Below are positions 1,866 to 32,652 of a stretch of DNA of 33,518 nt, in pieces (the first letter of the stretch is position 1; each line of letters opens with the position of its first letter). The position numbers and the translations under genes were made by a program. This stretch comes from a virus. The DNA is taken from positions 1 to 33,518 of the IMG/VR virus record IMGVR_UViG_3300047480_000629, one strand, 5' to 3'. The notes below the pieces were generated by a model. The model saw only the letters and a program-made list of their open reading frames with translations. It was not told the DNA's origin and searched no databases.

Positions 1866-2516
1866 TTATTTGTTAGTCAAGTATGTCCTGTTTAGCATCG
1901 TGTGATTATGATCAGTTGGTCCCCAGTCTCCGTCTGGGTGGAAAGCAATTACAGTCATAGACTCAGATTCTGTTGAGAATCTATGATTCTCTCTTTCCTC
2001 AATACAGAACATCATTCCTTCTTTTAATTCTACATTCTTATGCATATTACTCGCGGTCTTTGTCCAAGCTATGCCATTGCCCTTTGCAACCACACCAAGT
2101 CTAATGCTTGGGTGAATATGAAAAGATTGATTTACACCTGCAGGGAAGTGTAACATGCTTAAGCTTGGATCACCCAACCTTGGTGGATAAACTAGTAGAC
2201 TATCACTGCATGAGTCAATGTATACTAATCTTCCGCTTTCTTCAATAGGTCCACCAACCATGTTTTGACCTTTAAACCCAAGACGAGTGAATATTACTGT
2301 TTCACCCGTTATTTTTATAGATGAGTTCTTACCAATCCAAAAACAAAAGTATTGTCCTTCTTTAGCAACGTTTCCATTTGGGAAATGTGCTTCTCCATTT
2401 AAAATGTACCCATATGCTGTAGAGTATGGAGTACACTCAAATGTTGAGTTACTTACTTTATTAGCATGACATGGATACATTGTATCTAGTGCGTCAATTA
2501 CATTACCTAAAATCAC
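1866..2516 (-). CDS. Bicupin-like protein
   Basis: Two consecutive cupin-like halves can be seen (about residues 20-85 and 115-205). The second has a candidate metal triad: HIHP (about residues 133-136) and a later His in ENHRF (about 178). The classic Glu of cupin motif 1 is not evident, so catalysis is uncertain. GTG at 2516 is chosen because GGAG lies 7 nt upstream; a TTG at 2522 would sit only 1 nt after it. The gene overlaps the end of the asparagine-synthetase-like gene by 14 nt, tying it to the maturation-like cassette. Cupins include oxygenases, isomerases and simple sugar or small-molecule binders. Here it might be another tailoring enzyme of the cassette or a metal-binding accessory. 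Confidence 0.7.
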   Translation of the reverse strand: MILGNVIDALDTMYPCHANKVSNSTFECTPYSTAYGYILNGEAHFPNGNVAKEGQYFCFWIGKNSSIKITGETVIFTRLGFKGQNMVGGPIEESGRLVYIDSCSDSLLVYPPRLGDPSLSMLHFPAGVNQSFHIHPSIRLGVVAKGNGIAWTKTASNMHKNVELKEGMMFCIEERENHRFSTESESMTVIAFHPDGDWGPTDHNHTMLNRTYLTNK

Positions 2517-3633
2517 GCTCAATCTCCAAAAATGTGTTTTCCCTGTTTATGAACTCATCATCCAGTGGATAGTGTTCATAGGCGACCATATCTCTATTTA
2601 GCAAAAATGGCAGAGACTTTTGCTTAGCCAAGTTAGTTAAACTGCCAATCTTTGGCTTCTTATAGTAGCTCTTATCTCCATTGAAGTCAAGGATGTAATC
2701 TTTAGTCACATACTTGACGCTATCTTCGCTATCCTTAACCAACTTATCGGTATTGTTTAGTGACCAGAGCTGAAACTCTTTAGGCCAATAAAATGTGGTA
2801 TAGTTTTCTTCTATCTTAATGTTTGCCCTATTCTTAGAATAAGGCAATATACGTACATAGACTGACTGCCATTTATTTGTAAAGTTTATCCACCATAAGA
2901 ACTTATACAACGTATCGATCTTTATAGGCGCTGCATCACATAGCCTCTTAAACATATTGTAATAAGCACGTGCATACTTCTTATAACCGTCTTGAAGTCT
3001 TCCATGCATCCAATTAATTATCTCTTCTTCGGCATCATCTAATGATGTAAACAAGAAACTATATGGTCTGTATGCAGTAAACTTAACTGTCACCTGAGAA
3101 CCAAATAGTTGGTCTGCGTTTTCACCAGATATCATCAAGTAATCATCATTCCCAAGGTAATATGGAAACCTAAAGCTAGACACGCACTCAAACTTCTTTA
3201 TGATATACTGATCATAAAAGTTCTGGTTTTCTTGTATAGAATGATCGCTCAATAATACCACTACATGTTGCTTTACATCTTTTTCTGTACAATTTTTTAG
3301 CAACGCACAGAGAATACCTGTAGAATCAATTCCACCGCTATACATCACAGCTAGCTTCTTATTCGAAGCTTTGGCCTTTTCCATGACTTGTATAGCTCTC
3401 TCATTCATTATCTTGTCGAATGACTTATCAAACTTGACAAACTCAGGCATCTTGAGATGGTCCATGACTTCAGCTTTAAGCGGAGTCGTGAACGTATTAG
3501 TCCTATCAACTACACTAATATTATTTGAGAATAGTTGATAGTAACCGCCCATTGCATGACCACCTGGGATTTTATCTCTTAGGTGATGGTATGCAGGGTT
3601 TACAAATATATCATAGCTATTATAAAAAATCAT
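2503..3633 (-). CDS. Asparagine-synthetase-like ATP-pyrophosphatase, no glutaminase domain
   Basis: The PP-loop motif SGGIDS is at residues 99-104, and SGENADQLFG (169-178) matches the conserved 'SGEGADELFGG' block of AsnB-type synthetase domains. At 376 residues it lacks the N-terminal class II glutaminase: the protein does not start with the catalytic Cys2. It thus resembles synthetase-only relatives of AsnB, which adenylate a carboxylate and pass it to an amine; the lasso-peptide macrolactam synthetases and beta-lactam synthetase belong to this superfamily. Its start overlaps the preceding gene by 4 nt (ATGA). Sitting downstream of a radical SAM enzyme and a Cys-rich protein, it may form an amide bond on that protein. 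Ordinary asparagine or amidotransferase activity with free ammonia is the alternative. Confidence 0.85.
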   Translation of the reverse strand: MIFYNSYDIFVNPAYHHLRDKIPGGHAMGGYYQLFSNNISVVDRTNTFTTPLKAEVMDHLKMPEFVKFDKSFDKIMNERAIQVMEKAKASNKKLAVMYSGGIDSTGILCALLKNCTEKDVKQHVVVLLSDHSIQENQNFYDQYIIKKFECVSSFRFPYYLGNDDYLMISGENADQLFGSQVTVKFTAYRPYSFLFTSLDDAEEEIINWMHGRLQDGYKKYARAYYNMFKRLCDAAPIKIDTLYKFLWWINFTNKWQSVYVRILPYSKNRANIKIEENYTTFYWPKEFQLWSLNNTDKLVKDSEDSVKYVTKDYILDFNGDKSYYKKPKIGSLTNLAKQKSLPFLLNRDMVAYEHYPLDDEFINRENTFLEIERDFR

Positions 3634-4370
3634 ATATTGCCATACTCAATGATTTCAGTCTTAAACTTATCCAATAAATCCTGTAAGTTTTCTAGCTTCT
3701 CTTCTCTTTTAACTAAATCAGTGTACTTCATCCTCAAGTTTTCATTCTCTGCCAAACGAGCTATATGTGTCTCATACTTAAACATGATACGCTTTGCAGC
3801 TTCAACAAAACTAATATCCACACACTCAGCATAGCCAGTCGTCATAGGGTACTTCAATAATTTATCTTCTAATATATTCTTTTCGAGGATCTCTTTTGCT
3901 TCTAAATACTTTGCAAAATAAGTATCCTGAAAGCCATGAGAGTCTCTGTTAATAAGTCTTCTAACTTTATCTAGCTCATCATGCATGATATCCATCAACG
4001 CAGCTTTTTGATTGATTAAGATATGTGAATACAGCTCTTCTTCAGATTGTATATTAGGAGAATCATTCCACCCGCTGCCATCATCTTTTACACGAATTCT
4101 CCAACACTTATTTCTCATAAATGAAGTGCGTTGTATGCTATTCATCCCATCAAACACATATGAATAAACTACTTGTTTGTCAAAGTCTGATAGTGCTCTA
4201 ACGCTTGATGCATGGTTACAAACAGCTAATATCCTCTTATCACCAGATGCAACTAAAATATTAGTATTGTTTGAGTGCAAAGCCATGTCTAATAGTTTAT
4301 CACTTTTATGAATAAAGTGAGGTTGTAGACTCTTATAATAAGAATCAATCATTGCATCATCTAACATCAA
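3630..4370 (-). CDS. Conserved cassette protein, paralogue of its upstream neighbour (246 aa)
   Basis: No family is firmly recognised. It shares with the next gene an N-terminal 'YYKSLQPHF' type start (SLLPHF in the other), a central helix, 'YFAKYLEAKE' (YFVKYLEAKD) and a C-terminal 'KYTDLVKREE..L..LLD' helix. The C-terminal half (Tyr..Lys..EA, then Tyr-Pro, then a long helix ending in E.R.KY..LV) recalls a helical domain seen in phage fiber-associated proteins and chaperones; that is a resemblance only. No cysteine motif, signal peptide or membrane segment. It overlaps both neighbours by 4 nt. Roles as substrate chaperone, scaffold or fiber assembly protein for the cassette are possible. Confidence 0.75.
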   Translation of the reverse strand: MMLDDAMIDSYYKSLQPHFIHKSDKLLDMALHSNNTNILVASGDKRILAVCNHASSVRALSDFDKQVVYSYVFDGMNSIQRTSFMRNKCWRIRVKDDGSGWNDSPNIQSEEELYSHILINQKAALMDIMHDELDKVRRLINRDSHGFQDTYFAKYLEAKEILEKNILEDKLLKYPMTTGYAECVDISFVEAAKRIMFKYETHIARLAENENLRMKYTDLVKREEKLENLQDLLDKFKTEIIEYGNI

Positions 4371-5047
4371 TATTCCCTCTCAGAAGCATACGCTTTTAAG
4401 ATATCATTTAGTCTACTAATATCATTTTCTTGTTTAATCATATTAGTATACTTTATACGAGCGTTCTCAAATTCTGCTACTTTAGCCATCCTAATCTCAT
4501 ACTGTAATATCACATTCTTTGCATCGTTCAATGAGTGAATAAACAAATACTTTCTTTCTTTACCATCAACAAAGTCTTTGGCTTCTAAATACTTTACGAA
4601 GTAAACTTCTTCTTGTGATGGTAAGTATCTGCTAACAATCCTGCTATTTCGTTTTACACGAGATAATATAAAGTCAATTGCAGCTACCTTTTGTACATCC
4701 AATATAGCTTCATATACTTCATCAAGCGTATTGAAGTCATACGACTCTCGCCAATAATATAAGTTATTCTTTTCTTCTAATCTCCACTTCCAACATTCAT
4801 TCATTGGAAATACAACTGGATCATCGAAGTTGGTTTCTGGCAATATGCCAAATTCCATAGTCCCGCGCTGTATTGCTCTTAGCGACTTGTAGAAAGAACT
4901 AAGAGCAATGATCCTGCCATAGCTATCATTGCTCATTAATATATCAAAGTTGCTTTTTAGGTGTAAGCTTACATAATGATCTGTTATTCTTACGAAGTGT
5001 GGCAACAATGATCTATGGTATTCATCAATCTCATTCTTCGTTAACAT
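4367..5047 (-). CDS. Conserved cassette protein, paralogue of its downstream neighbour (226 aa)
   Basis: This is the second member of a tandem pair. Shared blocks with the 246-residue neighbour are SL(L/Q)PHF near the N-terminus, a CW(K/R) segment in the middle, YF(V/A)KYLEAK(D/E), and KYT(N/D)(M/L)(I/V)K near the C-terminus, in the same order and spacing. The two have diverged strongly elsewhere, which suggests an old duplication with separate roles or a heterodimer. The start overlaps the stop of the 214-residue gene (TAATG). The protein is soluble, with a helical C-terminal half. Function unknown; it belongs to the cassette by coupling and position. Confidence 0.75.
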   Translation of the reverse strand: MLTKNEIDEYHRSLLPHFVRITDHYVSLHLKSNFDILMSNDSYGRIIALSSFYKSLRAIQRGTMEFGILPETNFDDPVVFPMNECWKWRLEEKNNLYYWRESYDFNTLDEVYEAILDVQKVAAIDFILSRVKRNSRIVSRYLPSQEEVYFVKYLEAKDFVDGKERKYLFIHSLNDAKNVILQYEIRMAKVAEFENARIKYTNMIKQENDISRLNDILKAYASEREY

Positions 5048-5691
5048 TATACCGTTTGAATTTCCATCTGTTCAATACGCAATGCAGCAGGAGGTTTGAT
5101 TCCAGTTGTTAGATAATCATTAATTCGTTTTCTAAAGTCTGCTACTACCATATCATGCTTACTTAAGTCATCATATACAGCTTTTGGAAGTGCAGATATG
5201 AATGGTATATAAGCATCATCATACACGATATCTTCCACATATGCAGTTACATTCATCCCATCTTTACCGACGACCGAGGTAAACTTGCGCTTCAAGAAGT
5301 TGTGATGGCGCACTTGTACAACTCCTGGAATCTTAGATATTCTATCAACCAACTTCTGTAAATTATTCGTTTCAATATTCAAGTGCGCTGGAGCAATATC
5401 TAAAGTAAAATAATCATCTAGTTGAGATCTCATCCTATTAATTAGTTCTAAGTGTTTATCAGGATTTTCAGCATCATCTATTGAAATCAATTCAACAAAT
5501 CTTGGATATGCATCTGATCCATCTTTTCTTTGTACTAAACAACTTATGACATAACCTTCAGAACCAAGTTTGTCTTTTAAAGATTTCTGTAAAATCTTAT
5601 GACAACGAACTTGTACAATTCTACTATCAAGTGTAGATAATCGCTCTAGTAAGTGTGGAAGCATTTCAGAGTTAATGTCAATTGCAATCAT
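5047..5691 (-). CDS. Internally duplicated cassette protein (214 aa), unknown
   Basis: The protein is two copies of one domain of about 100 residues (1-101 and 102-201). Matching blocks are IVQVRCHKIL/VVQVRHHNFL, DKLGSEGYVISCLV/SVVGKDGMNVTAYV, SDAYPRFVELI/DDAYIPFISAL, and MRSQLDDYFTLDI/FRKRINDYLTTGI. Each unit reads as alpha/beta with a HxxLxx basic helix. The start overlaps the radical SAM stop by 4 nt. The fold is not recognised; a substrate- or leader-binding partner for the radical SAM enzyme is an attractive but unsupported idea. No signal peptide, membrane segment or metal motif is seen. Confidence 0.75.
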   Translation of the reverse strand: MIAIDINSEMLPHLLERLSTLDSRIVQVRCHKILQKSLKDKLGSEGYVISCLVQRKDGSDAYPRFVELISIDDAENPDKHLELINRMRSQLDDYFTLDIAPAHLNIETNNLQKLVDRISKIPGVVQVRHHNFLKRKFTSVVGKDGMNVTAYVEDIVYDDAYIPFISALPKAVYDDLSKHDMVVADFRKRINDYLTTGIKPPAALRIEQMEIQTV

Positions 5692-7118
5692 TTTACTTCT
5701 GCCTTAGTGTATACTTCGATACCATCAAGTTCAGTCTTCACACTAATTGACTTGATAGGAATTATCTTTCGTTTCTTTTCTTCGTGTTTTAATACAGTAC
5801 CAAAAATGTCTTTACGATCATCTGGCAATACATCACTATTTATGTAGTAAGGAATGTATCCTCCAGTAATCTTCTCAATCGACAATGCAAATAATGGTAT
5901 ATTATCAGAATATGCATTATCACATGTAGTATCCCATAACTCTCCATCTAAGAACATGCAAGAACCTTTGCATAGATGAAGTACTGGACAACTGGCGCAA
6001 TCTGGTCTATTCATCCAATGAGTAGCTGATTTGATAGACACGTTGTCATAATCATCTAGTGTACCAACCAAATGTGACTCACCATTCATAGCAGTCTCAA
6101 CAGCAGATACGTTTTGGCATGTAATAACACGACCTTTCATATCAATTGCTAAAACACCTGGATCATCCATTCCGCATTTTTGGCCAAGGTATTCCGAAGA
6201 AGCTTGCTTTAAGATGCCATGCGTGAAGTTATCAATCTTCTGAAGGATAGTTCCAAAACCTATTTGGCCTTGTGTTGAATATATGTCATTGAAAGAAAGC
6301 TGACGATAGTCAAAATGCTCTTTCTTCGTAGTTAAAGAATTATTGGCACCATCGATGTCATATGCATCAACAATACCGCCTTCGCCAAGAGCAACATATG
6401 GATCGCCTGTAAAGTTTACAAACCAATCATATATCTCTTTTCTGCTCTTGTTCTTTGAGTTTAACATAGAGTTAAAACTAATACGACCAAGAGGTCTCAT
6501 CAACTTATAGAATTCTAGTACAGTCTTTTTGTTTTCTTCATCTTCAAATGGATCTGGACCACGTACGCTTTGTCCAGGACCATCATGGCTGATTGAAACA
6601 TAGAATCCCATGTAGTATAACCATGCACAGATATCACGAGTTAATATAGAACCGTTAGTGATTACAGAGAACTTAGGTTTCTTCTGCCATGAAGAGAATC
6701 TATCGAGCAACGCTTCAGCAAGCGGCTTCATGGTCTTCCAATAAACAAATGGCTCACCACCCCAAAACTCAATAGACAAACCTGTTTGTTCTGAGAACTC
6801 GAGTGTGTCTAACTTGGCTAAGAAGTTATCGATGTCTTTTTTGGATGTTTCTGGAGGACGCTCAACAAACTTTTGTGAACAATAATCACACGAGTAGTTA
6901 CACGATAGACCCATTTGTATTTTTAGTTTATGGATCTTCTTAGACTTTTTTAGCGGAGCGTCTTTTGAGAACGGAACGACTTTATCGCTCGTATATTGAA
7001 TTTCTTCGTCTGATTTAAATACAAAGCCATCTTCTGACTTTAATGTATTTGTGACGTTATCATAGTAAAAGATTTTTTTGTCTTCACTATTTTTTTCTGC
7101 AAGTATTTCAAATATCAT
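5688..7118 (-). CDS. Radical SAM/SPASM domain peptide-maturase-like enzyme
   Basis: The radical SAM cluster motif CxxxCxxC is at Cys73, Cys77 and Cys80 (CNYSCDYC); the SAM-binding GGEP motif is at 120-123. The C-terminal third carries a full SPASM set: C315-X13-G-X4-C334, then C374-X2-C377-X5-C383-X3-C387 and C399, which fits the family formula for two auxiliary 4Fe-4S clusters. Proteins of this kind modify ribosomal peptides or proteins (thioether or C-C crosslinks, epimerisation) or act as sulfatase-type maturases. At 476 residues it has typical length, with about 60 extra N-terminal residues and no evident RRE domain. The gene starts 18 nt after the Cys-rich protein gene, with a weak AGG 7 nt before ATG, so that protein is the obvious candidate substrate. 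Confidence 0.95.
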   Translation of the reverse strand: MIFEILAEKNSEDKKIFYYDNVTNTLKSEDGFVFKSDEEIQYTSDKVVPFSKDAPLKKSKKIHKLKIQMGLSCNYSCDYCSQKFVERPPETSKKDIDNFLAKLDTLEFSEQTGLSIEFWGGEPFVYWKTMKPLAEALLDRFSSWQKKPKFSVITNGSILTRDICAWLYYMGFYVSISHDGPGQSVRGPDPFEDEENKKTVLEFYKLMRPLGRISFNSMLNSKNKSRKEIYDWFVNFTGDPYVALGEGGIVDAYDIDGANNSLTTKKEHFDYRQLSFNDIYSTQGQIGFGTILQKIDNFTHGILKQASSEYLGQKCGMDDPGVLAIDMKGRVITCQNVSAVETAMNGESHLVGTLDDYDNVSIKSATHWMNRPDCASCPVLHLCKGSCMFLDGELWDTTCDNAYSDNIPLFALSIEKITGGYIPYYINSDVLPDDRKDIFGTVLKHEEKKRKIIPIKSISVKTELDGIEVYTKAEVK

Positions 7119-7136
7119 AATTTAGCCTATTATAAA

Positions 7137-7553
7137 TTAACCGCCGCAAGCATCTCCGCAAGCACATGCGCATGCACATGCACACGCACAATTATAACTT
7201 ACTGCTGAAGTCGTACAATTATATGTACATGCACAATTACAGTTTGGTTGTAACCATTGTTGCACATCACAGTTTGCACAATTAACAGAGCCAGTAATTA
7301 CACAATTAACACACTGAATGTTTCCACAGTTGCAGTTTGCTGTACAATTACCATTATTGCAATTACCTTCATTGGTGTTTTGAAAGTATGCAAACCCATA
7401 AACATTATTAATACTAGACACGGTACCTGGCTGTCTATTGACAGGCTTAGTAATATTCTTCACAAAGCCCAAACTAGATGAAAAGTTTGGTGCATTTTGT
7501 GTTTCTCTATTAATATCCTCTAATGATATCGAACCAGTATTTTGTAGTGTCAT
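7137..7553 (-). CDS. Cys-rich virion-type protein, candidate substrate of the radical SAM enzyme (138 aa)
   Basis: Residues 1-62 have no cysteine and contain GSISLEDINRE and a later VSSINNVYG, matching the 'ISLsDI..E....SL..lyG' motifs common at the start of phage tail and fiber proteins. Residues 65-136 hold 19 cysteines, many as NC, CxC or CxxC, and residues 122-132 are a strict alternation of six Cys and five Ala. Neutral Asn, Ala, Thr and Gly fill the rest. There is no secretion signal. It sits between an S74 fiber gene and the radical SAM gene. The inference is a virion-anchored protein with a C-terminal Cys domain that is crosslinked enzymatically or binds metal. The start ATG lies 2 nt before the next gene boundary, so coupling to the fiber gene is likely. 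Confidence 0.85.
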   Translation of the reverse strand: MTLQNTGSISLEDINRETQNAPNFSSSLGFVKNITKPVNRQPGTVSSINNVYGFAYFQNTNEGNCNNGNCTANCNCGNIQCVNCVITGSVNCANCDVQQWLQPNCNCACTYNCTTSAVSYNCACACACACACGDACGG

Positions 7554-7555
7554 GA

Positions 7556-8650
7556 TTAATTAAGTTTTGCTTCAATTGCTTCTACTCTTGCAATAAGTTC
7601 GTTAAGCGCTTGTGCCAACAATCCACCCATATTTCCATAAGCAACTGATAGAGTTCCATCTGAAGCTACTTTAATAAGTTCTGGAGCTTTAGATTGTAAT
7701 TCTTGAGCTACAACACCGATCTCTCTTTCTTCACTGTCTAAGCGTTTGTAGTAGACACCTCTGAAAGACTTAATAATATCTATAGCACCTTTAATAGTCT
7801 CGATTTCTCTCTTTAGTCTACCATCAGAGAAACCAGTAACGTTACCGACCATAACCAAGTTACCACCTGGTTGGATCTCACCAGCTTTTGCTCCATTTGC
7901 AGCAAAGAACATGTAACCATCACCACCCCAATACAAACCTGTATCTTGTGCACCATCAGATGCAAATGCTAGCGATGGAGAAGCAGCAGTACCATTGGCT
8001 AATAATAACTTGTTTTCAATCGTAGCATTTTGTACAGTTATAGAAGAACTAGTTAATATCTTAGAACCACTTAAGCCTGTAATCCAAGATGGATCATTAT
8101 ATCCACCAGATTCACTAACTGGTGTGTATCCTAATGCAGCTTCAATATCTGAAGCTTCTATATCCATAGCTTCAGTTAATCTGCCATCACCATCAACTGT
8201 AAACTTTGTGAACGTTCCTGGATTTACTCCAGTTGGGTTAAGCGCTAATATTCCGCTTACGTTTGCAGAACCATCAAATGATACGTCCCATGTAGCATCG
8301 CCTGTGATAGTGATGATACGAGCATTTCTTAATTTTGTTGCAGTAGAAGCATTACCATTTAAATCGCCGATTACGTCAGCTATCAAATTTCCAGCTATAG
8401 TTAAATTACCATTGGTGTCCAGTATTAGTTCTGGTCCATCACCGCCGTCTACGTTAACCTGAAATATTTCTCCTCCAGTAGACAAAATGCCACCAATAGG
8501 AGTACGATCGCGTACTTCATTGATAGCATTTATTATACTTGTGGAAGTCGTTTGAAGAGAAGCTTGATCACCAATCAAAGAGCTAATCTGATTAGTCTTA
8601 ACTCTCCATTGTTCAAATGTATCTTCTAAACTTACGTTTATGACGGACAT
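7556..8650 (-). CDS. Tail fiber protein with S74 intramolecular chaperone domain
   Basis: The N-terminus has TFEQWRVKTN, a motif frequent at the base of phage tail fibers, followed by repeat-like segments (DLNGNASTATKL, GDATWDVSFDGSANVSG) typical of trimeric fiber shafts. The last 90 residues form a Peptidase_S74/intramolecular chaperone domain: SDGRLKREI places Ser275 and Lys280 in the S-x4-K spacing of the self-cleavage dyad, followed by GVVAQELQ..APEL and a C-terminal coiled coil. Such domains trimerise the fiber and then cut themselves off just before the Ser. The gene lies 11 nt downstream of the 78-residue coiled-coil gene. Mature fiber would be about 274 residues if cleaved. Confidence 0.9.
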   Translation of the reverse strand: MSVINVSLEDTFEQWRVKTNQISSLIGDQASLQTTSTSIINAINEVRDRTPIGGILSTGGEIFQVNVDGGDGPELILDTNGNLTIAGNLIADVIGDLNGNASTATKLRNARIITITGDATWDVSFDGSANVSGILALNPTGVNPGTFTKFTVDGDGRLTEAMDIEASDIEAALGYTPVSESGGYNDPSWITGLSGSKILTSSSITVQNATIENKLLLANGTAASPSLAFASDGAQDTGLYWGGDGYMFFAANGAKAGEIQPGGNLVMVGNVTGFSDGRLKREIETIKGAIDIIKSFRGVYYKRLDSEEREIGVVAQELQSKAPELIKVASDGTLSVAYGNMGGLLAQALNELIARVEAIEAKLN

Positions 8651-25395: not shown

Positions 25396-25838
25396 TGCCA
25401 ACATACAAAGGTTTCTATCGGGTGAAGAACCCGGCAAAATATGAAGGAGATTTCAAGAACGTGATCTATAGATCTCACTGGGAGATGCAAGTCTTTAGAT
25501 GGTGTGACTCAAATGATCAGGTGTTGAAATGGAGCTCTGAAGAGATAGTGGTGCCATATTGGTATCCACTAGACAAAAAGTATCATCGTTACTTTGTGGA
25601 TGTTAAGTTTACCACAAAGGAAGGCACATTCTTGGTCGAGATTAAACCAAAGTCACAGACTGTACCTCCAAAGAAGCCGTCGAGACAGACTAAGAGATAC
25701 CTCGAGGAAGCACGAACATACGTGAAAAACCAGTGTAAGTGGAAAGCTGCCGATGAATTTGCCAAAGATAAAGGTTGGCAATTTGTCATATGGACAGAAG
25801 ACACAATTAAATCACTAGGCATCAGAATTTTAACATAA
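25395..25838 (+). CDS. gp4: Head completion protein gp4
   Basis: Starting at ATG 25395 the 147-residue product opens MPTYKGFYRVKNPAKYEGD and continues with VIYRSHWEMQVFRWCD, SSEEIVVPYWYPLDKKYHRY and VEIKPKSQTVPPKK, all close to T4 gp4 (150 residues, also called gp50/gp65 head completion). The family has a nuclease-like fold with conserved E...K residues; gp4 acts on the DNA-filled head before tail joining. An upstream in-frame ATG at 25281 would add 38 residues that lie antisense to gp48 and are unlike gp4, so it is not used. No clear Shine-Dalgarno precedes 25395. Confidence 0.93.
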   Translation: MPTYKGFYRVKNPAKYEGDFKNVIYRSHWEMQVFRWCDSNDQVLKWSSEEIVVPYWYPLDKKYHRYFVDVKFTTKEGTFLVEIKPKSQTVPPKKPSRQTKRYLEEARTYVKNQCKWKAADEFAKDKGWQFVIWTEDTIKSLGIRILT

Positions 25839-25846
25839 ATAGATGA

Positions 25847-26443
25847 ATGGCTACAAGTTATTTCGATAGATTAAGGAAAGGCATGAATGTGCCTGCGCGC
25901 TCTATGGAGTCGCGTAAGTGGTTCCAGCAAAAGGTGAGCTCTTTAAAGGGCAACATCAATGCTGCAACATTTTTAAAAGATCCTGCATTCATAGCTAAGA
26001 CCAAGTTTAGGATCGGGTTCATGTATCATTTTTTATATGATCCTAAACATAAAGATACGTTGCCATATTGGGATAGATTTCCATTAATCATTGCAGTGGG
26101 GCCAGCTGAAGGCGGGTTTTATGGTATCAACTTACACTATGTCCATCCAGTAGCAAGAGCTCGAATGATGGATAGGTTGTATGATACAGTAAACAATGAG
26201 AAGTGGGATGAGACGACTCGTATGCGTATCAATTATAATATATTATCAAGTATAGCATCATTAAAATACTTTAGACCAGCATTTAAACACTACTTGTTTA
26301 ATCACATTGAATCACGCATCATGATGGTACCATCTTCAGAATGGGAGATCGCTATGTGGTTGCCAACTGAAAAGTTTAGAGGTGCATCTAAAGACAAAGT
26401 TTGGAGAGACTCCAAGAAATTAGTAACGGGATACAGAGCATAA
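25847..26443 (+). CDS. Conserved T4-like myovirus protein (198 aa), probably virion or packaging associated
   Basis: The block LPYWDRFPLIIAVGPAEGGF followed by YGINLHYVHPVARARMMDRL is characteristic of a protein found next to gp4 or tail genes in marine T4-like phages, usually without an assigned function. It is basic and soluble, with a helical C-terminal half containing IESRIMMVPSSEWEIAMWLP. It begins 8 nt after gp4 and ends 1 nt before the tube-like gene. It may be a neck or DNA-end protein; that is inference from neighbours. Confidence 0.8.
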   Translation: MATSYFDRLRKGMNVPARSMESRKWFQQKVSSLKGNINAATFLKDPAFIAKTKFRIGFMYHFLYDPKHKDTLPYWDRFPLIIAVGPAEGGFYGINLHYVHPVARARMMDRLYDTVNNEKWDETTRMRINYNILSSIASLKYFRPAFKHYLFNHIESRIMMVPSSEWEIAMWLPTEKFRGASKDKVWRDSKKLVTGYRA

Positions 26444-26444
26444 T

Positions 26445-27098
26445 ATGCCACAAATAGATCAATTTAAATCAGCGATTAGCAAACGCGGTGGTCTTGCACC
26501 ACAAAATAGGTTTGCTGTCTACATGGCGTTACCACTATTAACATTTGATCCACAGGAGTTAGTTGCCAAAGTCTTTGACCAAGGTGCAAACACTGGTGGA
26601 TTGGGTTTTGGTATCAATGACCCACGAGATGTGTCCATATTATGTGATTCAGTTACCATGCCTGGTCGACAGATAGCTACTAACGACTTACAAACAAATT
26701 TACTTGCTGTGAAGATGCCATACACGTATATGAACGACGATGTCAGCTTCACATTCCATATCACAAACGATCACTTCATGAAGAAGTACTTCGAGAAGTG
26801 GTTTAATAGCATCATCAATCGTAGGAATATGACTATTAAGTACAAGTCACAGTACGCGACTGATGTCATCATCCAACAACTAGATCAACGCGATGTGCCT
26901 GTCTATACATGTACACTACGCAACGCTTTCCCAACAACTATTGCCAGCTATGAAGTGGCCAACTCTGGTGAAAGCGCAACACAACGTATGACTATAACCC
27001 TATCATACGATGACTGGTATGAAGAGGGTTTCATCGAATCTATCCTATCGAAGGGCAAAGTATTGCTTGGTTCGGTTGGAAGAACATTTGGCTTATAA
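26445..27098 (+). CDS. Tail-tube family protein (gp19/gp54-like)
   Basis: The N-terminus FKSAISKRGGLAPQNRFAVY, the middle DSVTMPGRQIATNDLQ and the later DDVSFTFHITNDHFMKKYFE and WFNSIINRRN follow the T4 gp19-type tube fold, in which monomers form hexameric rings. T4-like marine phages carry a tail tube gp19 and a second related protein that starts the tube. Because this gene is followed by gp26/gp51 and the tape measure, and the sheath gene is not next to it, the tube initiator (gp54) is the better guess. 217 residues is between gp19 (163) and gp54 (320). It starts 1 nt after the preceding stop. Confidence 0.75.
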   Translation: MPQIDQFKSAISKRGGLAPQNRFAVYMALPLLTFDPQELVAKVFDQGANTGGLGFGINDPRDVSILCDSVTMPGRQIATNDLQTNLLAVKMPYTYMNDDVSFTFHITNDHFMKKYFEKWFNSIINRRNMTIKYKSQYATDVIIQQLDQRDVPVYTCTLRNAFPTTIASYEVANSGESATQRMTITLSYDDWYEEGFIESILSKGKVLLGSVGRTFGL

Positions 27099-27115
27099 TA
27101 TTATAGGAGTATATC

Positions 27116-27826
27116 ATGCCTTTGCCAATTAATTTAACAACACCTACATATGAAGTGAAGCTACCGCTCAGCAAGAAGAAGGTGAAGTATCGTCCATACT
27201 TAGTCAAGGAGGAGAAACTCCTGATGATGGCTATGGAGAGCGGCGACCAAAAGATGATTATGAAGACAGTACAGGACATCATCGATGAGTGTACCTTCAA
27301 TGAAGTCAAGGCGAAGAACTTACCAACTGCTGAACTAGAACTGCTGTTCTTGAAGCTACGCGCTAAGTCAGTCGGTGAGACTTCAAACATTGGTTATGCA
27401 TGTACCAACTGTGGTACAACAAATGAGATCTCTGTCAACTTAGAGGCTATCGAACTAGACGCAAGTAATGCAGTCGACCCAAAGATCATGCTGACTGACA
27501 GTGTCGGCGTCATCCTAAAATACCCAACTGCAGAAGACGTAACTAAGGTCGTTGCATCTGGTGAGAGTGAGATCACAAACACGTTTAAGGTGATTGGTTC
27601 ATGTATCGAGACTATCTTTGATAAAGAGAACATGTACCAAGCAGAGGACTTATCACAGGAAGAGATCGACGAGTTCGTAGAGTCATTGAGCTCACGACAG
27701 TTTGAGAAGATCAAAGAGTTCTTCCAAGGGATCCCAAAGCTATCGAAGGTGATTCACTTTGATTGTACCAAATGTGGTACTCATAATGAACTCAAGCTCG
27801 AGGGCCTACAGAATTTTTTCGCGTAG
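27116..27826 (+). CDS. gp26: Baseplate hub assembly protein gp26 (0-frame product)
   Basis: The 236-residue product has the gp26-type start (TTPTYEVKLPLSKKKVKYRP followed by LVKEEKLLMMAMESGD) of T4-like marine phages. Two zinc-ribbon half sites, C96-x2-C99 and C217-x2-C220, can pair to bind one metal. TAGGAG stands 7 nt before the ATG. The last codons are CAG AAT TTT TTC GCG TAG, in which T TTT TTC is a perfect -1 slippery heptamer; shifting there continues into a gp51-like tail instead of stopping. Position just before the tape measure fits a tail-assembly chaperone. Confidence 0.88.
   Translation: MPLPINLTTPTYEVKLPLSKKKVKYRPYLVKEEKLLMMAMESGDQKMIMKTVQDIIDECTFNEVKAKNLPTAELELLFLKLRAKSVGETSNIGYACTNCGTTNEISVNLEAIELDASNAVDPKIMLTDSVGVILKYPTAEDVTKVVASGESEITNTFKVIGSCIETIFDKENMYQAEDLSQEEIDEFVESLSSRQFEKIKEFFQGIPKLSKVIHFDCTKCGTHNELKLEGLQNFFA
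27814..27820 (+). promoter_or_regulatory. Programmed -1 ribosomal frameshift site (T TTT TTC)
   Basis: In the gp26 frame the codons TTT TTC are preceded by T, exactly the X XXY YYZ slippery form. Slipping back one base continues as CGC GTA GCT and stays open to 28017. The 0-frame stop is two codons away. Downstream, TCTCT (27828-27832) can pair with AGAGA (27846-27850) about 7 nt after the heptamer; this stem is weak. The arrangement equals the G/GT chaperone frameshift that precedes tape measure genes in many tailed phages. Confidence 0.75.
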
Positions 27827-28017
27827 CTCTCTCACACGATAGTCTAGAGAACCACTTTAGAGTAAACTTTATCATGATGCAGCACCACAAGTATAGCTTA
27901 ACAGAGTTAAATGAGATGTTGCCGTGGGAGAGAGAAGTCTACATCGCTATGTTAGTTGAACACATCAAAGAAGAGAACGAGAGAATTAAACAGCTCAACA
28001 ACAAGTATAAGGTATAG
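27820..28017 (+). CDS. gp51: gp51-like domain, translated as -1 frame extension of gp26 (65 aa)
   Basis: From the slippery site the -1 frame reads RVALSHDSLENHFRVNFI, then QHHKYSLTELNEMLPWEREV, YIAMLVEHIKEENERIKQL and ends at TAG 28015-28017, 2 nt before the tape measure ATG. The central 'SLTEL..M.PWER..Y..ML' segment resembles the gp51 baseplate hub catalyst of T4-like marine phages. With the shift the fusion would be 300 residues. An independent start at ATG 27874 or 27877 would give 46-47 residues but has no Shine-Dalgarno, and the coding-like sequence begins well before these codons, which favours the fusion. Confidence 0.75.
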   Translation, partial: RVALSHDSLENHFRVNFIMMQHHKYSLTELNEMLPWEREVYIAMLVEHIKEENERIKQLNNKYKV

Positions 28018-28019
28018 AG

Positions 28020-29663
28020 ATGGCAAAGAAGAAATCTGGAGAACACAACCCAAAGACCGAGGGTGGACCAGACAGCGTTCGTGGTAACCTTAGTGCTCTG
28101 ATCATTGAAGTTCAGAAGACTAATGCTGCGCTCGAGTCAGACAGCGCGGTACTAGACGTACAGACACGTGCGCTGACAAACATCAATGACGTGATTGTAG
28201 ACGTATACCAACACGTCAAAGCGATCGCAGAGACCATGGCAGGTAATAAGCTCAAGGAGCTAGAGGATGCCAAGGAACGTCAGAAGCAGATGGAGGACTT
28301 GGTCGAGGCTCTGAAGGAAAAGAGAAAGCCAGATGAGAAGCCAAAGAAGGACGGCGACTTCTCATGGTTAGGCCTTGCTGCATCGCTGATCACTGGCCTA
28401 GTCGCTGGTGGTATGGCCTTCATCGCTAACTATGTCAAAGGTCTACAAGCTCTCTGGTCAGGGATCGCGAAGGCACTCAAGATCGATGGTATCATCATGA
28501 AGCTGTTTAGTGCGGTCAAGAGCGGGTTCATGTTCATAGACGACATCATAGGCAAAGGCTTCAATAAGATCTGGTCGTTTGTATCAGGTCTATTCGATGG
28601 TAAGATGTTTGCAGCCATCACAGGCTTCTTTAATAAGATCATCACAGGCTTCGGTAAGTTGACTGGTTTGACTGGCATCATGGACGAGTTCGGTAAGCTA
28701 TGGCAGTCAGTGAAGGGTGTATTTGGCATGGTGTTTGGCCCAGAGTCATCGCTCGCTAAGTTCTTCGGCTACTTCACAAAGGGAGGCGGCGGCTTCCTAT
28801 CCTACTTCGATGACCTACTTAAGTTCTTTACCCCATTAACTTCCTTCTTCAAGGCACTAGGATCTGTACTCGGTAAGATCGCTCTGCCACTACAAGTCAT
28901 CATGTCCATCTTTGATACTGTGACTGGTGCATTGGACGGGTGGGAGAAGACACAAGGCGGTTTCATGGACAAGTTGTTCGGTGCGATCGCAGGCGGTCTA
29001 TCAGGTCTATTGAACGGCCTGATCGGCGGGCTGTTAGACCTACTCAAGGGCGGGTTGTCCTATATTCTCGAGTTCTTTGGCATGAAGGATGCAGCTGCAT
29101 GGCTAGACTCCTTTAAGTTCACAGACATGATCACCAACATAGTGACGAGCATCTTTGACTACATCAAGGGCATCATCAACGGAGTCATCGGCTTCTTTCA
29201 AAAGTCCCCAGCCCAGATGATGGAGAGCATAGCAAACGCGATGACCTATGTAGCAGACGCAGCGAAGAACGTATTGAAGTCATTGCTACGCATGGTCCTA
29301 CCAGACCCAAGCAAGGGCGTAGCACAGAAGCTAGCGTCGAAGGCCATTCCAGATGCTGTATATGAGTTCGCAGGCATGGATCCAAAGACAGGAGCCATCA
29401 AGGAAGAGGCACCAGCACCAGCTCCTATGACAGCACCACCTGCACAAGCGCTACCTCAGGCACAGGCTGTAAATACTCAGGCACAGGCAGGACTACAAGA
29501 AGCAGCAGCCACGGCCCAGGCAGAGGGCATGAAGTTGAACCTACGTCCAAGCCTACAGAGACCACAGGGAGGCGGAACGGCCCCAGCAGTACCGATCTCT
29601 TCATCCACGACCAAGTGGGACCCAGAGGACGCCATGGGCAGAGGCATGTACGTAGGCGCATAA
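28020..29663 (+). CDS. gp29: Tape measure protein (gp29-like)
   Basis: A 547-residue protein (T4 gp29 590) with a charged coiled-coil N-terminus to about residue 110, then a long run of hydrophobic amphipathic helices (GLAASLITGLVAGGMAFIAN and onward, residues about 115-420) and an Ala/Pro/Gln-rich disordered C-terminus. Tape measure proteins set tail length and later leave through the tube. Placement directly after a gp26/gp51 frameshift gene is the conserved chaperone-tape measure order. Codon third positions are clearly richer in G/C than in the minus-strand genes to the left. The start is 2 nt after the preceding stop, with no strong ribosome site, so translational coupling is likely. Confidence 0.82.
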   Translation: MAKKKSGEHNPKTEGGPDSVRGNLSALIIEVQKTNAALESDSAVLDVQTRALTNINDVIVDVYQHVKAIAETMAGNKLKELEDAKERQKQMEDLVEALKEKRKPDEKPKKDGDFSWLGLAASLITGLVAGGMAFIANYVKGLQALWSGIAKALKIDGIIMKLFSAVKSGFMFIDDIIGKGFNKIWSFVSGLFDGKMFAAITGFFNKIITGFGKLTGLTGIMDEFGKLWQSVKGVFGMVFGPESSLAKFFGYFTKGGGGFLSYFDDLLKFFTPLTSFFKALGSVLGKIALPLQVIMSIFDTVTGALDGWEKTQGGFMDKLFGAIAGGLSGLLNGLIGGLLDLLKGGLSYILEFFGMKDAAAWLDSFKFTDMITNIVTSIFDYIKGIINGVIGFFQKSPAQMMESIANAMTYVADAAKNVLKSLLRMVLPDPSKGVAQKLASKAIPDAVYEFAGMDPKTGAIKEEAPAPAPMTAPPAQALPQAQAVNTQAQAGLQEAAATAQAEGMKLNLRPSLQRPQGGGTAPAVPISSSTTKWDPEDAMGRGMYVGA

Positions 29664-29686
29664 AGAGGATATAAGGAGAATAAAGC

Positions 29687-30037
29687 ATGAGCATGTACGT
29701 ATTAAAGAACAGCGGGACTGAGGTCGTCATCAAGGCCTACACGAACGTGTCTAACGGTGAGACGATCACCTTCAACCTATCAGAGGCGGCCGAGAACGGT
29801 GAGACCGTAACAGGACTAAGCTTCAAGGAGTTATTCTGGACTACTCGACCAGGCAAGCACGTCACGATCCAGAGGGTCGAGGCAGAGGACGACCTAGAGG
29901 GTGGTTACTACTTCTCGAACGTAGGCCACTTTCACTTTAATAACTTCGTAGACTCTACCTACTCACAGTACCCGATCAGGTTTACTTTCGATGCACCTGG
30001 TACGGTCATCATTCGAATGTATAAGACACTAGCCTAA
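29687..30037 (+). CDS. Hypothetical protein (116 aa), possibly virion associated
   Basis: The product is a beta-rich domain with no membrane segment, cysteine or known motif; segments TVTGLSFKELFWTTRPGKHV, GHFHFNNF and DAPGTVIIRMYKTLA suggest a small jelly-roll or Ig-like fold. A strong AAGGAG lies 8 nt before ATG 29687. It follows the tape measure by 23 nt. It is unrecognised by name; small beta proteins beside tail genes are often decoration or hub accessory proteins. Confidence 0.75.
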   Translation: MSMYVLKNSGTEVVIKAYTNVSNGETITFNLSEAAENGETVTGLSFKELFWTTRPGKHVTIQRVEAEDDLEGGYYFSNVGHFHFNNFVDSTYSQYPIRFTFDAPGTVIIRMYKTLA

Positions 30038-30090
30038 TGCACGACGCATTGGCTTATGTTGATATCCCATACATCATAAAGGACTATAGC

Positions 30091-30606
30091 ATGAACAGAC
30101 GCCCATTGAGGTTCGTCACCCGTGAAGAGGAGTGGGAGTTGATCCAGAGGCTAGACGCCGTGGTCGACTCCACTGACTTCCACCCATTGACCACAGCCGT
30201 GATCATGGCATCCCCAGACTACTCAGCTACATTTGCTATGCACCTAGCCCACTCATGGTCTCGTGCAGGTGAGATGCTACCCATCATCCCAGTCGACGTG
30301 ACATATCCAGACGAGGAGGCGACCCCATATATCCAGGCAATGAGGGCGCAGAAGCCCCAGATCACCCAGTATAAACGCTTAGTGCTAGTCGAGGCAGGCA
30401 TCATCCGAGGCGGGAACTGGGAATGGATGCTAAATATACTGACCGATGAATGGGGATACGATAGGTCTCAGGTCACCCTAGTAGCAGCAATGGAGAACGT
30501 CCATAGTCGAGTCAAGTCAGACTACGTCGGTAAGTACTATGATGACAACAAAGAAGAGCTGATGTTCTACTTTGAGAAGTACAATAAGCACTGGCCTATC
30601 AGATGA
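30091..30606 (+). CDS. Conserved phage protein, weak phosphoribosyltransferase-like pattern (171 aa)
   Basis: ATG 30091 is chosen because AAAGGA sits 7 nt upstream; ATG 30037 (overlapping the previous stop as TAATG) would add 18 residues but has no ribosome site. A Rossmann-like order is visible: TAVIMASPDYSATFAMHLAH, then ITQYKRLVLVEAGIIRGGNW and SQVTLVAAMENVHSRVKSDY. The VLVEAGIIRGGNW stretch recalls the PRPP loop of phosphoribosyltransferases, but the paired acidic residues are incomplete (E-A), so activity is doubtful. The protein is acidic and soluble. It overlaps a tiny membrane-peptide gene by ATGA. Confidence 0.75.
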   Translation: MNRRPLRFVTREEEWELIQRLDAVVDSTDFHPLTTAVIMASPDYSATFAMHLAHSWSRAGEMLPIIPVDVTYPDEEATPYIQAMRAQKPQITQYKRLVLVEAGIIRGGNWEWMLNILTDEWGYDRSQVTLVAAMENVHSRVKSDYVGKYYDDNKEELMFYFEKYNKHWPIR

Positions 30607-30680
30607 CCTGGGAAGACGCCAAACGCCTGCGCATCACCATATTCTGTATAGCAATGGTAATACTCGCGCTACTCATATAA
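30603..30680 (+). CDS. Tiny membrane peptide (25 aa)
   Basis: ATG overlaps the previous stop (ATGA), and the product is a charged start (MTWEDAKRLR) followed by one hydrophobic helix ITIFCIAMVILALLI to the stop. It is the last gene before the plus-strand terminator. Small single-span peptides are common in phage genomes; function is unknown. Coupling and the clean amphipathic-to-hydrophobic layout support it, its brevity argues for caution. Confidence 0.5.
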   Translation: MTWEDAKRLRITIFCIAMVILALLI

Positions 30681-30705
30681 TCAGGCATATAACCAACAGG
30701 CAGCC

Positions 30706-30734
30706 GGGCACCCCAAGCGGGTGCCTTTTATTTT
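30706..30734 (+). terminator. Rho-independent terminator of the plus-strand tail operon
   Basis: GGCACCC (30707-30713) and GGGTGCC (30719-30725) form a 7-bp GC-rich stem with a 5-nt loop CAAGC, followed by TTTTATTTT. It lies 26 nt after the last plus-strand gene and would also help insulate the convergent minus-strand genes. Confidence 0.9.
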
Positions 30735-30945
30735 GCTGTAAACAACTGAGAATTATCTGTAATTATCTGGAGAAAGATAATTGGGCCAGGGGGAAAATTT
30801 CTGAGGATCAACCTGGAGAAATACTACCATCCCCGGGGGGAATTCCATGATTTTCGTAACGGATGCGATCGGTTTAACCAACAGGGTAACCAATAGATGG
30901 TCTCCTACATATATGGAACCTTAGTATAAGGTTCCCTGTAGGCTG
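30735..30945. other. Convergent intergenic region with short repeats, no supported gene
   Basis: Between the plus-strand terminator and the last minus-strand gene. It holds two direct AATTATCT copies (30751-30758, 30761-30768) with an inverted AGATAATT (30775-30782); two CTGGAGAAA copies (30767-30775, 30813-30821); a CCCCGGGG palindrome (30831-30838); and TAACCAACAGG at 30875-30885, identical to 30690-30700 and nearly repeated at 30887-30897. No convincing ORF. It could be a regulatory or replication-related region. Confidence 0.6.
30904..30942. repeat. Long two-part inverted repeat (hairpin)
   Basis: An inner perfect 9-bp stem, GGAACCTTA (30915-30923) and TAAGGTTCC (30927-30935), has a 3-nt loop GTA. 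An outer 6-bp stem, CCTACA (30904-30909) and TGTAGG (30937-30942), encloses it. It begins 3 nt beyond the stop codon of the last minus-strand gene, so it may end or protect that transcript; there is no U-tract in either direction, so it is not a standard terminator. Confidence 0.75.
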
Positions 30946-31059
30946 CTAAAACCAGCCGTGCCTATCCCACCATATCAGGAACAGTGTCACACAGATGCCG
31001 ACTAGCTGTAAGATACAGAACGCCGCCAGTACATATATGACTACTTGTTCCGTATCCAC
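30946..31059 (-). CDS. Small membrane protein (37 aa), GTG start
   Basis: GTG at 31059 has AAGGAG 8 nt upstream, an ideal ribosome site lying inside the end of the preceding gene, which it overlaps by 19 nt. The product is a short acidic start (MDTEQ), one long hydrophobic helix (VVIYVLAAFCILQLVGICV and onward) and a basic, aromatic end (WWDRHGWF). Unknown function; single-span phage peptides can affect host membranes or lysis. Last gene of the minus-strand right-arm operon. Confidence 0.65.
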   Translation of the reverse strand: MDTEQVVIYVLAAFCILQLVGICVTLFLIWWDRHGWF

Positions 31060-31250
31060 TCTATGATCTCCTTAGCCTGACTCAGGTCTGACCGATCCAC
31101 TGCCTCGTCTATCATGTCTAACTGAGTGGTGTGCATCTCATTCAATACACGGTCTATGGTCTGCCTCTTACGCCAACCACTGATATGGTGGTATGGCTGG
31201 CTCCATTTATATGTGATCTGTCCGTTGATCGGTGGTCTGGATTGGTTCAT
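31041..31250 (-). CDS. Small helical protein (69 aa), unknown
   Basis: ATG 31250 is preferred: GGAG is 7 nt upstream and the ATG overlaps the stop of the previous membrane-peptide gene (ATGA). A GTG at 31274 would add 8 residues. The product has a basic N-terminal half (QPYHHISGWRKRQTIDRV) and an acidic helical C-terminal half (DEAVDRSDLSQAKEIIEWIR). No membrane segment. Not recognised. Confidence 0.65.
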   Translation of the reverse strand: MNQSRPPINGQITYKWSQPYHHISGWRKRQTIDRVLNEMHTTQLDMIDEAVDRSDLSQAKEIIEWIRNK

Positions 31251-31384
31251 CGATTGACTCCGTCCTTGATACACTGCATTGCTAGGTTAGGTGATACCAT
31301 ACCGACCACCACGATGATCACTCCCAGGAGGCACATGTACATCCGTGCCTGCACCAGGTCCGTCACTGCATTGAATAGCTTCAT
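31247..31384 (-). CDS. Small membrane protein (45 aa)
   Basis: The ATG overlaps the stop of the gene before it (AAATGA) and its stop overlaps the next ATG. The product has a polar start (MKLFNAVTDLVQARM), one hydrophobic helix (YMCLLGVIIVVVGMV) and a short tail with a Cys. A GGAG at 31389-31392 lies just upstream of the ATG. It is in an unbroken chain of overlapping genes, which supports it despite its size. Function unknown. Confidence 0.6.
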   Translation of the reverse strand: MKLFNAVTDLVQARMYMCLLGVIIVVVGMVSPNLAMQCIKDGVNR

Positions 31385-31590
31385 TTAAACATCTCCTTCT
31401 TGATGTACCGAGTGATGTACTCGTGCTGCTCGACCAGGTCTTCCATGTCCAGGTCCATGTCTAAGTTGTCCCTGACGAATTCATCGACCAGCTCCTCGAC
31501 CTGGCTGAGCAGCGACTGGGCGAGCTCTTTGTTTCTTTGCTTCTGTGTTACAGGGAAGTCGATCGGGTTGTCTGTGTTTGTAGCATGCAT
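31381..31590 (-). CDS. Small acidic helical protein (69 aa), unknown
   Basis: GGAGGAG lies 8 nt before ATG 31590. The product is strongly acidic with heptad-like helices (AQSLLSQVEELVDEFVRDN, then LDMDLDMEDLVEQHEYITRY) and a basic tail (IKKEMFK). It follows the ATPase gene by 19 nt and overlaps the next membrane-peptide gene. It may be a partner or inhibitor of a neighbouring protein, but no homologue is recognised. Confidence 0.7.
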   Translation of the reverse strand: MHATNTDNPIDFPVTQKQRNKELAQSLLSQVEELVDEFVRDNLDMDLDMEDLVEQHEYITRYIKKEMFK

Positions 31591-31609
31591 CTTCTTACTC
31601 CTCCTTCAA

Positions 31610-32536
31610 TTAATGGGTCAACACGTAGGTTGCAAGGTCACGGTAGTCTTTCGGGTTGGCTGCACGGATCTTCGCGACAGAGATGAGTGTCCGGAGGCTG
31701 ATCTCCTTGCACTCATCCTTGATCTCACGGATCAGGGACAACGCATCGGCCTTGATCTCAGTGGTGTATTCAGGCAAGAACTCGTCTGAGGCAGCGATGT
31801 GCTCCATACGATCGATCTTCTGGTCATCGGTCATGGACAGGTCAATCATCATGGACCGACTACGGATCGCCTGGTCGATCTTGTCCTGGTCCATGTTGCT
31901 GATGAACACTACGCGACCCTTGAACTCGAAGCTACGGGGTAGGTCATCGTCCTTGCCGAAGGACTCAGCGTTCCAGCTGATGATACGCTTGCCGTAACTA
32001 TCCAACGCACCCTTGAGCAAGTTAAGGGCGATCGGGTCTTTGAGGATAGAATCACAGTCATCGAACACCACAGTCGCGTTTTGGTTCTCGAACAAGGTGC
32101 GGTACAAGCCTTTAGCTGTAGAGTAGCCTTTGATCGTGACGTACACCTTAGACATCTGGATGATCGATCCAGCTGGCAGGCGTTGGATCAACTCGTTGTA
32201 GTCCTGGAGACCATTGGCCTTCAGGGTCTTCATTACAGTGTATGTCTTACCCAATCCACCTTGACCGGTGATCACTGTCGAGGGTTGGACACCAGTGGCG
32301 ACCATGCCGACGATCTTCTCCACGAAGCCAAAGCGTTGGTTGATGCCGAACTTCTCAGAGGTGGCGGGCTTCTGCATCGCCTCGATCTCCTTGAACGATT
32401 TCTTCTCGCCAGTGATCTGCTTGAACATGTACTCGATGTACTGCTGCTTGGTAGTGGTGAACTTCTGACCGTTGATAGCACACTTGAACTTGCCTTGAGC
32501 CTTGTCGAAGCTGATAATCACTGATACGTTCTGCAT
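31610..32536 (-). CDS. AAA-type ATPase
   Basis: From ATG 32536 (AAAGGA 9 nt upstream) the product has 308 residues. Walker A GQGGLGKT is at 91-98, Walker B VVFDD at 156-160, a sensor-1 like VFISN at 210-214, and Arg225/Arg227 in AIRSRSMMIDL as an arginine finger. A small lid domain follows (240-300). An in-frame ATG at 32656 lies inside a terminator hairpin, so it is not the start. Standalone AAA proteins of this kind occur in many phages without known role; DNA transactions or protein remodelling are possible. It heads a transcript that begins after the terminator. Confidence 0.85.
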   Translation of the reverse strand: MQNVSVIISFDKAQGKFKCAINGQKFTTTKQQYIEYMFKQITGEKKSFKEIEAMQKPATSEKFGINQRFGFVEKIVGMVATGVQPSTVITGQGGLGKTYTVMKTLKANGLQDYNELIQRLPAGSIIQMSKVYVTIKGYSTAKGLYRTLFENQNATVVFDDCDSILKDPIALNLLKGALDSYGKRIISWNAESFGKDDDLPRSFEFKGRVVFISNMDQDKIDQAIRSRSMMIDLSMTDDQKIDRMEHIAASDEFLPEYTTEIKADALSLIREIKDECKEISLRTLISVAKIRAANPKDYRDLATYVLTH

Positions 32537-32599
32537 ACTGAGATTTCCTTTGTTATTCATCATGGATACCATTCTACAGCAGTGGGTGGCCGTTGTACA

Positions 32600-32623
32600 T
32601 AGTAGTCTACTAAAACGGTAGAC
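32600..32623. promoter_or_regulatory. Palindromic operator-like site upstream of the ATPase gene
   Basis: TAGTAGTCTACTA (32600-32612) is a perfect 13-nt palindrome, and GTCTAC (32605-32610) pairs with GTAGAC (32618-32623) across a 7-nt spacer. On the minus strand TTGTCT and TACTAT flank the second repeat as poor -35/-10 elements with 15-nt spacing. It lies between the upstream terminator and the ATPase start, where a regulated promoter is needed. The role is inferred. Confidence 0.4.
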
Positions 32624-32652
32624 AATAAAAAAGCCAATAGAATCATTGGCTT
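32624..32652 (-). terminator. Rho-independent terminator (minus strand)
   Basis: On the minus strand AAGCCAAT (32652-32645) and ATTGGCTT (32638-32631) make an 8-bp stem with a 6-nt loop, followed by TTTTTTATTG. It ends the transcript of the 61- and 89-residue genes and separates them from the ATPase gene. Confidence 0.88.

Follow-up and report, generated by a model that had tools for sequence, protein, structure and literature searches.

Radical S-adenosylmethionine (SAM) enzymes carrying a SPASM domain have been described in several maturation systems. QhpD, PapB and CteB form thioethers on a Cys-rich target encoded alongside the enzyme, this target being a dehydrogenase subunit or a secreted peptide, and anSME and TigE, which likewise belong to the SPASM group, act on peptides or proteins. 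The subject of this work is a radical SAM/SPASM enzyme, here called rSAM, encoded next to a putative Cys-rich substrate in a 33,518-nucleotide stretch of viral DNA (IMG/VR record IMGVR_UViG_3300047480_000629, positions 1 to 33,518), hereafter the window. It resembles QhpD, PapB and CteB in superfamily, in domain order and in having a Cys-rich candidate target encoded beside it; however, its target would be a fiber-type virion protein. According to the comparative data presented below it is likely, with a probability of about 0.75, that the substrate modified by the phage rSAM is the Cys-rich (Asn/Ala/Asp-Cys)n tail, in most cases C-terminal, of a fiber or fiber-tip protein encoded by a neighboring gene.

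The window enzyme belongs to the phrog_1802 family, together with gp30 of Achromobacter phage JWF and a protein of phage 2-1, and in both of these phages a fiber with the sequence NCNCDCNC is encoded two genes upstream of the enzyme. This family is filed solely as "radical SAM domain-containing protein", and the PHROGs, JWF and 2-1 records give neither a substrate nor a link to a fiber. The open-access literature yielded no account of a phage rSAM with tail fibers as its target, which is weak evidence of absence, and we know of no other virus that encodes a radical SAM protein maturase to act on its receptor-binding machinery. If our proposal is correct, this would be, to our knowledge, the first virus-encoded maturase of that kind. 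Moreover, it would assign a function to phrog_1802, would account for a cryptic signature at the C-termini of tail fibers, those with Hint domains among them, and could yield new enzymes for peptide stapling. Phage JWF, which is cultured and has a compact version of the system, would offer a direct test case.

Pairing of rSAM with a cysteine-rich partner

More than 200 loci came from scanning viral and genome contigs, and all counts are among the matches listed. The loci were split into clades by rSAM identity to the window enzyme, with at least 54% for close relatives and about 33-47% for distant, or far, ones. For the pairing count, loci found via the Cys pattern were excluded, near-identical enzymes were removed, and at least 3.3 kb upstream and 1.5 kb downstream had to be present. 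A same-strand Cys-rich or (Asn-Cys)n virion-type partner was found in 90 of the 93 distinct rSAM-family loci (close clade, 36/36; far clade, 54/57), four of the positives (L291, L328, L345 and L233) being judged by eye because the regular expression or the distance rule was too strict there. The same figures describe a hallmark of ribosomally synthesized and post-translationally modified peptides (RiPPs), namely a precursor gene beside the modifying enzyme. Among other SPASM enzymes from the same scans, taken as a control, such a partner was present in 3/29 loci (Fisher p=5e-20, which is an upper estimate of certainty because the test assumes independent loci and related phages are not independent), and L234 and L236, two of the three scoring control loci, resemble remote rSAM relatives. 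Furthermore, the type of partner follows the rSAM clade, since the core motif described below occurs in 73/92 close loci vs 1/102 far loci, and this tracking of partner form with enzyme clade suggests co-evolution.

The association of rSAM with a Cys-tailed, mostly fiber-type protein is about as firm as sequence data can make it. The sequence-only reading had named in advance, as an outcome that would count against it, homologues regularly occurring without any Cys-rich neighbor; for rSAM this was not the case, as the 90/93 count indicates. Its proposal that the enzyme acts on a Cys-rich virion component is likewise strongly supported by comparative genomics, although at the level of prediction. 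As to its broader claim, that the phage chemically modifies a tail component, the pairing and the wider (Asn-Cys)n pattern on fiber tails speak in its favor, while the modification itself is something that we infer.

A different role for the cysteines must be taken into account here: the tail could be the metal- or Fe-S-binding tip of a trimeric needle, in which case rSAM would have another target in the late operon. With alternating Cys, a trimeric fiber would aim three thiols at one axis, T4 gp37 has HxH iron sites, and some NCNCNC ends exist without rSAM. However, metal binding would leave unexplained both the tail in 90/93 rSAM-family loci and the tracking of tail type with enzyme clade, and we regard it as improbable.

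The candidate substrate in the window is a 138-residue protein (7137-7553, minus strand) with an N-terminal module and a Cys-rich core ending in YNCACACACACACGDACGG; the core is conserved in relatives. It contains 19 Cys, 18 of which are retained in relatives. In the comparison with L001, 18 Cys codons are kept, five of them with a synonymous change, and 46 of the 118 other residues differ. Judged from these substitutions, the Cys residues are under purifying selection. A DNA-repeat artefact as the source of the Cys pattern was ruled out by the synonymous codon variation at conserved Cys. The protein had no family match in Pfam, PHROG or NCBIfam profiles, and a tblastn search against phages returned no match for it, for the AsnB-like protein or for one of the accessory paralogues described below; with the window nucleotides, the sole match among phage records was an unrelated fiber. 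Its gene directly follows a gp37-like fiber gene, where T4-like phages have gene 38, which encodes a fiber-tip adhesin or chaperone. Besides this shared gene position, the N-terminal module of the Cys proteins shows weak similarity to a glycine-rich protein in L035 (E 2e-4), a further likeness to gp38. In contrast, gp38 has a glycine-rich domain, whereas the phage Cys proteins have a Cys-rich core and a dedicated rSAM neighbor.

Close relatives share with the window protein a core composed of GNCNNGNC, NCNCGNIQCxNC, NCxNCDxQxWLQ and NCNCACTYNC, followed by (XC)n. The core-bearing protein comes in three forms: a small upstream protein, a downstream protein of about 300 residues continued by a "CSKIIC" domain, and a fusion to the S74 chaperone. 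The "CSKIIC" domain stands after the Cys core of downstream proteins in many loci (e.g. L035:8914-9816), and in Synechococcus phage SynMITS9220M01 (L348:3669-5519) a related domain instead stands behind a glycine-rich, polyproline-containing protein with no Cys core. One or two fatty-acid-desaturase-like genes, recognized by sequence motif, lie between rSAM and the downstream Cys protein in L035 (7452-8892), L010 and L038.

Two bacterial loci deserve separate mention. In Polynucleobacter necessarius (L233:4671-8347) a fragmented rSAM frame lies beside a fiber-type protein ending in YNCNCDRNCGC and looks like a decaying prophage copy. In Parasutterella muris (L234:3659-5055) three tandem Cys-rich proteins with a different spacing, e.g. 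NCTTVNCTTVNC, are encoded upstream of a remote rSAM relative.

Cysteine tails at fiber C-termini

At a first view the distant clade seemed to lack Cys partners, an idea that was rejected after C-terminal NCNCNC tails were recognized. The far-clade partner is a fiber-type protein encoded one or a few genes upstream, with NCNCNC or a similar sequence as its last residues. Cys is the final residue in 100/109 of these proteins, and its frequency per 100 residues is 27.2 in the last 20 positions vs 0.72 in the body. The spacers between tail Cys are Asn (71%), Ala (17%) and Asp (8%), with glycine absent and serine rare, a composition that would fit side-chain beta-carbon acceptors. PHROG matches and S74 fusions identify the Cys-tailed proteins as fibers. 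The wider common denominator is thus an (Asn-Cys)n run that ends the tail fibers, which a single window could not reveal. In L060 (1862-2645), three tandem proteins of 81-87 residues upstream of rSAM all end in NCNCxCNC.

The association was also seen in the reverse direction. A search for DNA encoding NCNCNC followed by a stop gave 79 stretches that were read, 45 of which were true open reading frame (ORF) ends, 33 of them adequately flanked downstream. An rSAM gene was near 28/33 of these viral ORFs, vs 0/34 stretches where the match is no ORF end. The ORFs with this ending and no rSAM encode 184 residues in L096, L144 and L155 and 202 residues in L099 and L137, another being in L132; their records may be fragments, or something else may make use of the tail.

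When no stop codon ends the (NC)n run, a Hint domain (CFPAGT...MADG) comes immediately after it in seven loci and the S74 chaperone in three. The Hint loci are those of phage JWF (L082:5646-7097), phage 2-1 (L081:9655-11097), L210, L232, L238, L309 and L337. The domain matches PF05203 from the CFPAGT junction with 46.6 and 47.5 bits (cut-off 32.1) in phages 2-1 and JWF, respectively, and was assigned by sequence alone in the other five. Since the Hint and S74 modules are self-cleaving, either one could leave the tail as a newly formed C-terminus. The tail tends to be a C-terminus, whether through a stop codon or, presumably, through a self-cleaving module next to it; to this apparent convergence the "CSKIIC" form adds an unexplained third case.

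A small Cys-rich ORF with an rSAM resembles a RiPP cluster, and the pair might make a released antimicrobial or signaling peptide instead of a virion part. One distant rSAM relative, in a Sulfuritalea metagenome-assembled genome (L226:2473-8233), indeed adjoins ATP-binding cassette (ABC) transporter and HlyD-like exporter genes; it has no Cys tail and is perhaps a true exported peptide system. However, most far-clade tails end fiber-type proteins of a few hundred residues, the core is elsewhere fused to the S74 chaperone, and no leader peptidase or exporter recurs in the loci. Release of a peptide is very improbable in our judgement. At the 10 loci with a Hint or S74 module behind the tail, trimming would occur C-terminally.

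The enzyme and its product

The rSAM gene (5688-7118, minus strand) encodes a protein matching PF04055 (1.4e-8, above cut-off), phrog_1802 (6e-60) and TIGR04085 (1.6e-7; 31.7 bits, cut-off 27). The CX3CX2C motif of the radical SAM superfamily (C73, C77, C80) is invariant in 25 relatives. So are all Cys of the SPASM domain (C315-x13-G329-x4-C334, C374, C377, C383, C387 and C399), in the seven-Cys pattern expected for two auxiliary clusters (Cx9-15Gx4C, Cx2Cx5Cx3C, C). An AlphaFold2 model (predicted local distance difference test score, pLDDT, 89) has anSME, TigE, CteB, ChlB and SuiB as fold matches in the PDB, with 16-18% identity to anSME and TigE over the matched structures. All five work on peptides or proteins, by different reactions.

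If the Cys tail is the rSAM substrate, its modification would take place before or during virion assembly, and the product could be thioether crosslinks from Cys to the side chains of adjacent Asn, Ala or Asp. The modified tail might then act as a rigid or chemically special receptor-contacting tip. A thioether is our first choice because of the Cys residues and because the nearest named families are QhpD and PapB, although we put it at somewhat below even odds; some other radical SAM product is only a little less likely. By NCBIfam score, QhpD (TIGR03906) reaches 71 bits against a cut-off of 453, and PapB (NF047865) 70.5 against 340.

Among the other products, the enzyme could carry out alternate-residue epimerisation, giving D-Asn, D-Ala or D-Asp between L-Cys, conversion of Cys to formylglycine, the reaction of anSME, or C-C or cyclopropyl chemistry of the TigE kind. 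Alternate-residue epimerisation is known from polytheonamide-type beta-helices, and the strict alternation of the tail with Asn, Ala and Asp spacers is what such a reaction, as by PoyD, requires. Moreover, TigE is the best PDB sequence match (1.2e-19) and anSME, whose substrate residue is Cys, the best fold match. However, the nearest named families are thioether-forming, the sulfatase motif CxPxR of anSME and the TIGSVS-type target of TigE do not occur in the phage tails, and TigE targets Ile/Val motifs. We see these chemistries as somewhat less likely, epimerisation and formylglycine formation being plausible, and thioether formation is kept as the working choice.

Several observations weigh against tail modification by rSAM as a whole. 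The partner is missing in three family loci (L074, L229 and L339), and five NCNCNC-ending ORFs (L096, L144, L155, L099 and L132) lie on records that contain no rSAM. Downstream-type loci have an internal Cys core, with the "CSKIIC" domain after it and no known cleavage. The enzyme itself reaches the cut-off of no named maturase among QhpD, PapB, geopeptide, CcpM and others, all scores being far below, and its model has no apparent canonical RiPP recognition element, the N-terminal 60 residues being strands with no helices. Finally, its nearest solved relatives (TigE, anSME and CteB) catalyze different reactions, so that homology does not fix the product. We file the system under radical SAM/SPASM protein maturation, as new in target and setting and as a member of no named maturase family.

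Neighboring and accessory genes

The window covers the tail region of a T4-like myovirus, with baseplate wedge subunits, a hub with lysozyme and a tail-tube cap. All genes of the locus are on the minus strand. Directly upstream of the Cys protein and rSAM pair lies the gp37-like long tail fiber gene (7556-8650), with a C-terminal S74 intramolecular chaperone (PF13884, 1.5e-9; phrog_11011, long tail fiber distal subunit, 3.3e-29), 2 nucleotides from the Cys-rich gene, which is itself separated from rSAM by 18 nucleotides. Then follow genes for an internally duplicated protein of 214 residues (5047-5691), for accessory paralogues 1 (226 residues, 4367-5047) and 2 (246 residues, 3630-4370), and for an AsnB-like PP-loop ATPase without a glutaminase domain (2503-3633). 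The overlaps are of 4 nucleotides between rSAM and the 214-residue gene, 1 between this and paralogue 1, and 4 at each of the next two junctions. A cupin-like gene (1866-2522; PF07883 4e-6, just under the cut-off) comes next, and recurs past the AsnB-like gene in L003, L016, L023 and L031.

The order and overlaps of the six genes at 2503-7553 in a T4-like tail operon, as given in the sequence-only reading, agree with these coordinates, and its protein assignments are borne out. The halves of the 214-residue protein align with 29% identity (E 2e-12), the tandem paralogues are 31% identical, and the AsnB-like protein has an SGGxDST motif invariant in the family alignment and no glutaminase-domain match in Pfam or NCBIfam profiles. 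Placement of the set between fiber genes holds for the upstream S74-type fiber, whereas the genes past the set (the cupin-like gene and those for proteins of 119 and 232 residues) are not clearly fibers. The view of the six genes as one set did not stand: a fixed cassette was rejected, since only rSAM and the Cys protein are universal and the other genes are exchanged elsewhere.

Two tandem single genes replace the duplicated one in L002, L003 and L005. Paralogue 1 is perhaps a chaperone; when the PDB was searched with a profile of this family, no convincing match came up. The PP-loop protein has weak ATP_bind_3 and Asn_synthase matches, both under the Pfam cut-off (Asn_synthase, 13.5 vs 21 bits), and its model (pLDDT 80) resembles human ASNS and beta-lactam synthetase with a low TM-score of 0.3-0.4 (E 3.5e-4), from which we assign it an ASNS/beta-lactam-synthetase-like fold with moderate confidence. 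The nitrile synthetase PesC, an AsnB-like RiPP enzyme, acts on a C-terminal carboxylate (PMC13060819). PesC and the lasso-peptide cyclases are comparable in that genes for peptide modification are there, too, accompanied by one for an asparagine-synthetase-like PP-loop protein; moreover, the phage tails are likewise C-termini. The phage protein differs in its score under the Asn_synthase cut-off, in the lack of a glutaminase domain and in its presence in just 16/97 adequately flanked loci, a minority of both clades (5/36 close, 11/61 far); no lasso leader-binding or protease partner was seen at the phage loci.

In other loci the accessory places are taken by 2-oxoglutarate (2OG)-Fe oxygenases, a Trp-halogenase-like flavoprotein or a protein of about 300 residues without an assigned family. 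A protein of about 240-330 residues with no Pfam match lies near 47/61 distant-clade enzymes, perhaps serving as a chaperone or adaptor. As accessory factors, the AsnB-like protein, the paralogues and the duplicated protein could, for example, carry out ATP-dependent work on the tail carboxylate or amide, or act as chaperones. Taken as a widespread class of virion maturation that has so far gone undescribed, these systems would have rSAM crosslink the (Asn-Cys)n C-terminus of a fiber, exposed by a stop or by Hint/S74, with AsnB-like, 2OG oxygenase and halogenase-like enzymes decorating it further; we give this prediction an even chance. Action of the Trp halogenase on the core Trp (NCDxQxWLQ) was rejected for lack of correlation, as loci with a halogenase-like gene had 9 Trp and 4 other residues, and those without it 35 and 15 (p=1).

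In distant-clade phages (L056:7640-8587, and also L058, L062, L067 and L072) a gene for a DctP-type tripartite ATP-independent periplasmic (TRAP) solute-binding protein (PF03480, 3.6e-40) lies between or beside the rSAM and AsnB-like genes. At the other end of the window, in 25800-33500, gene direction flips and GC content goes from about 0.40 to 0.50, around a plus-strand tape-measure-like gene (28020-29663).

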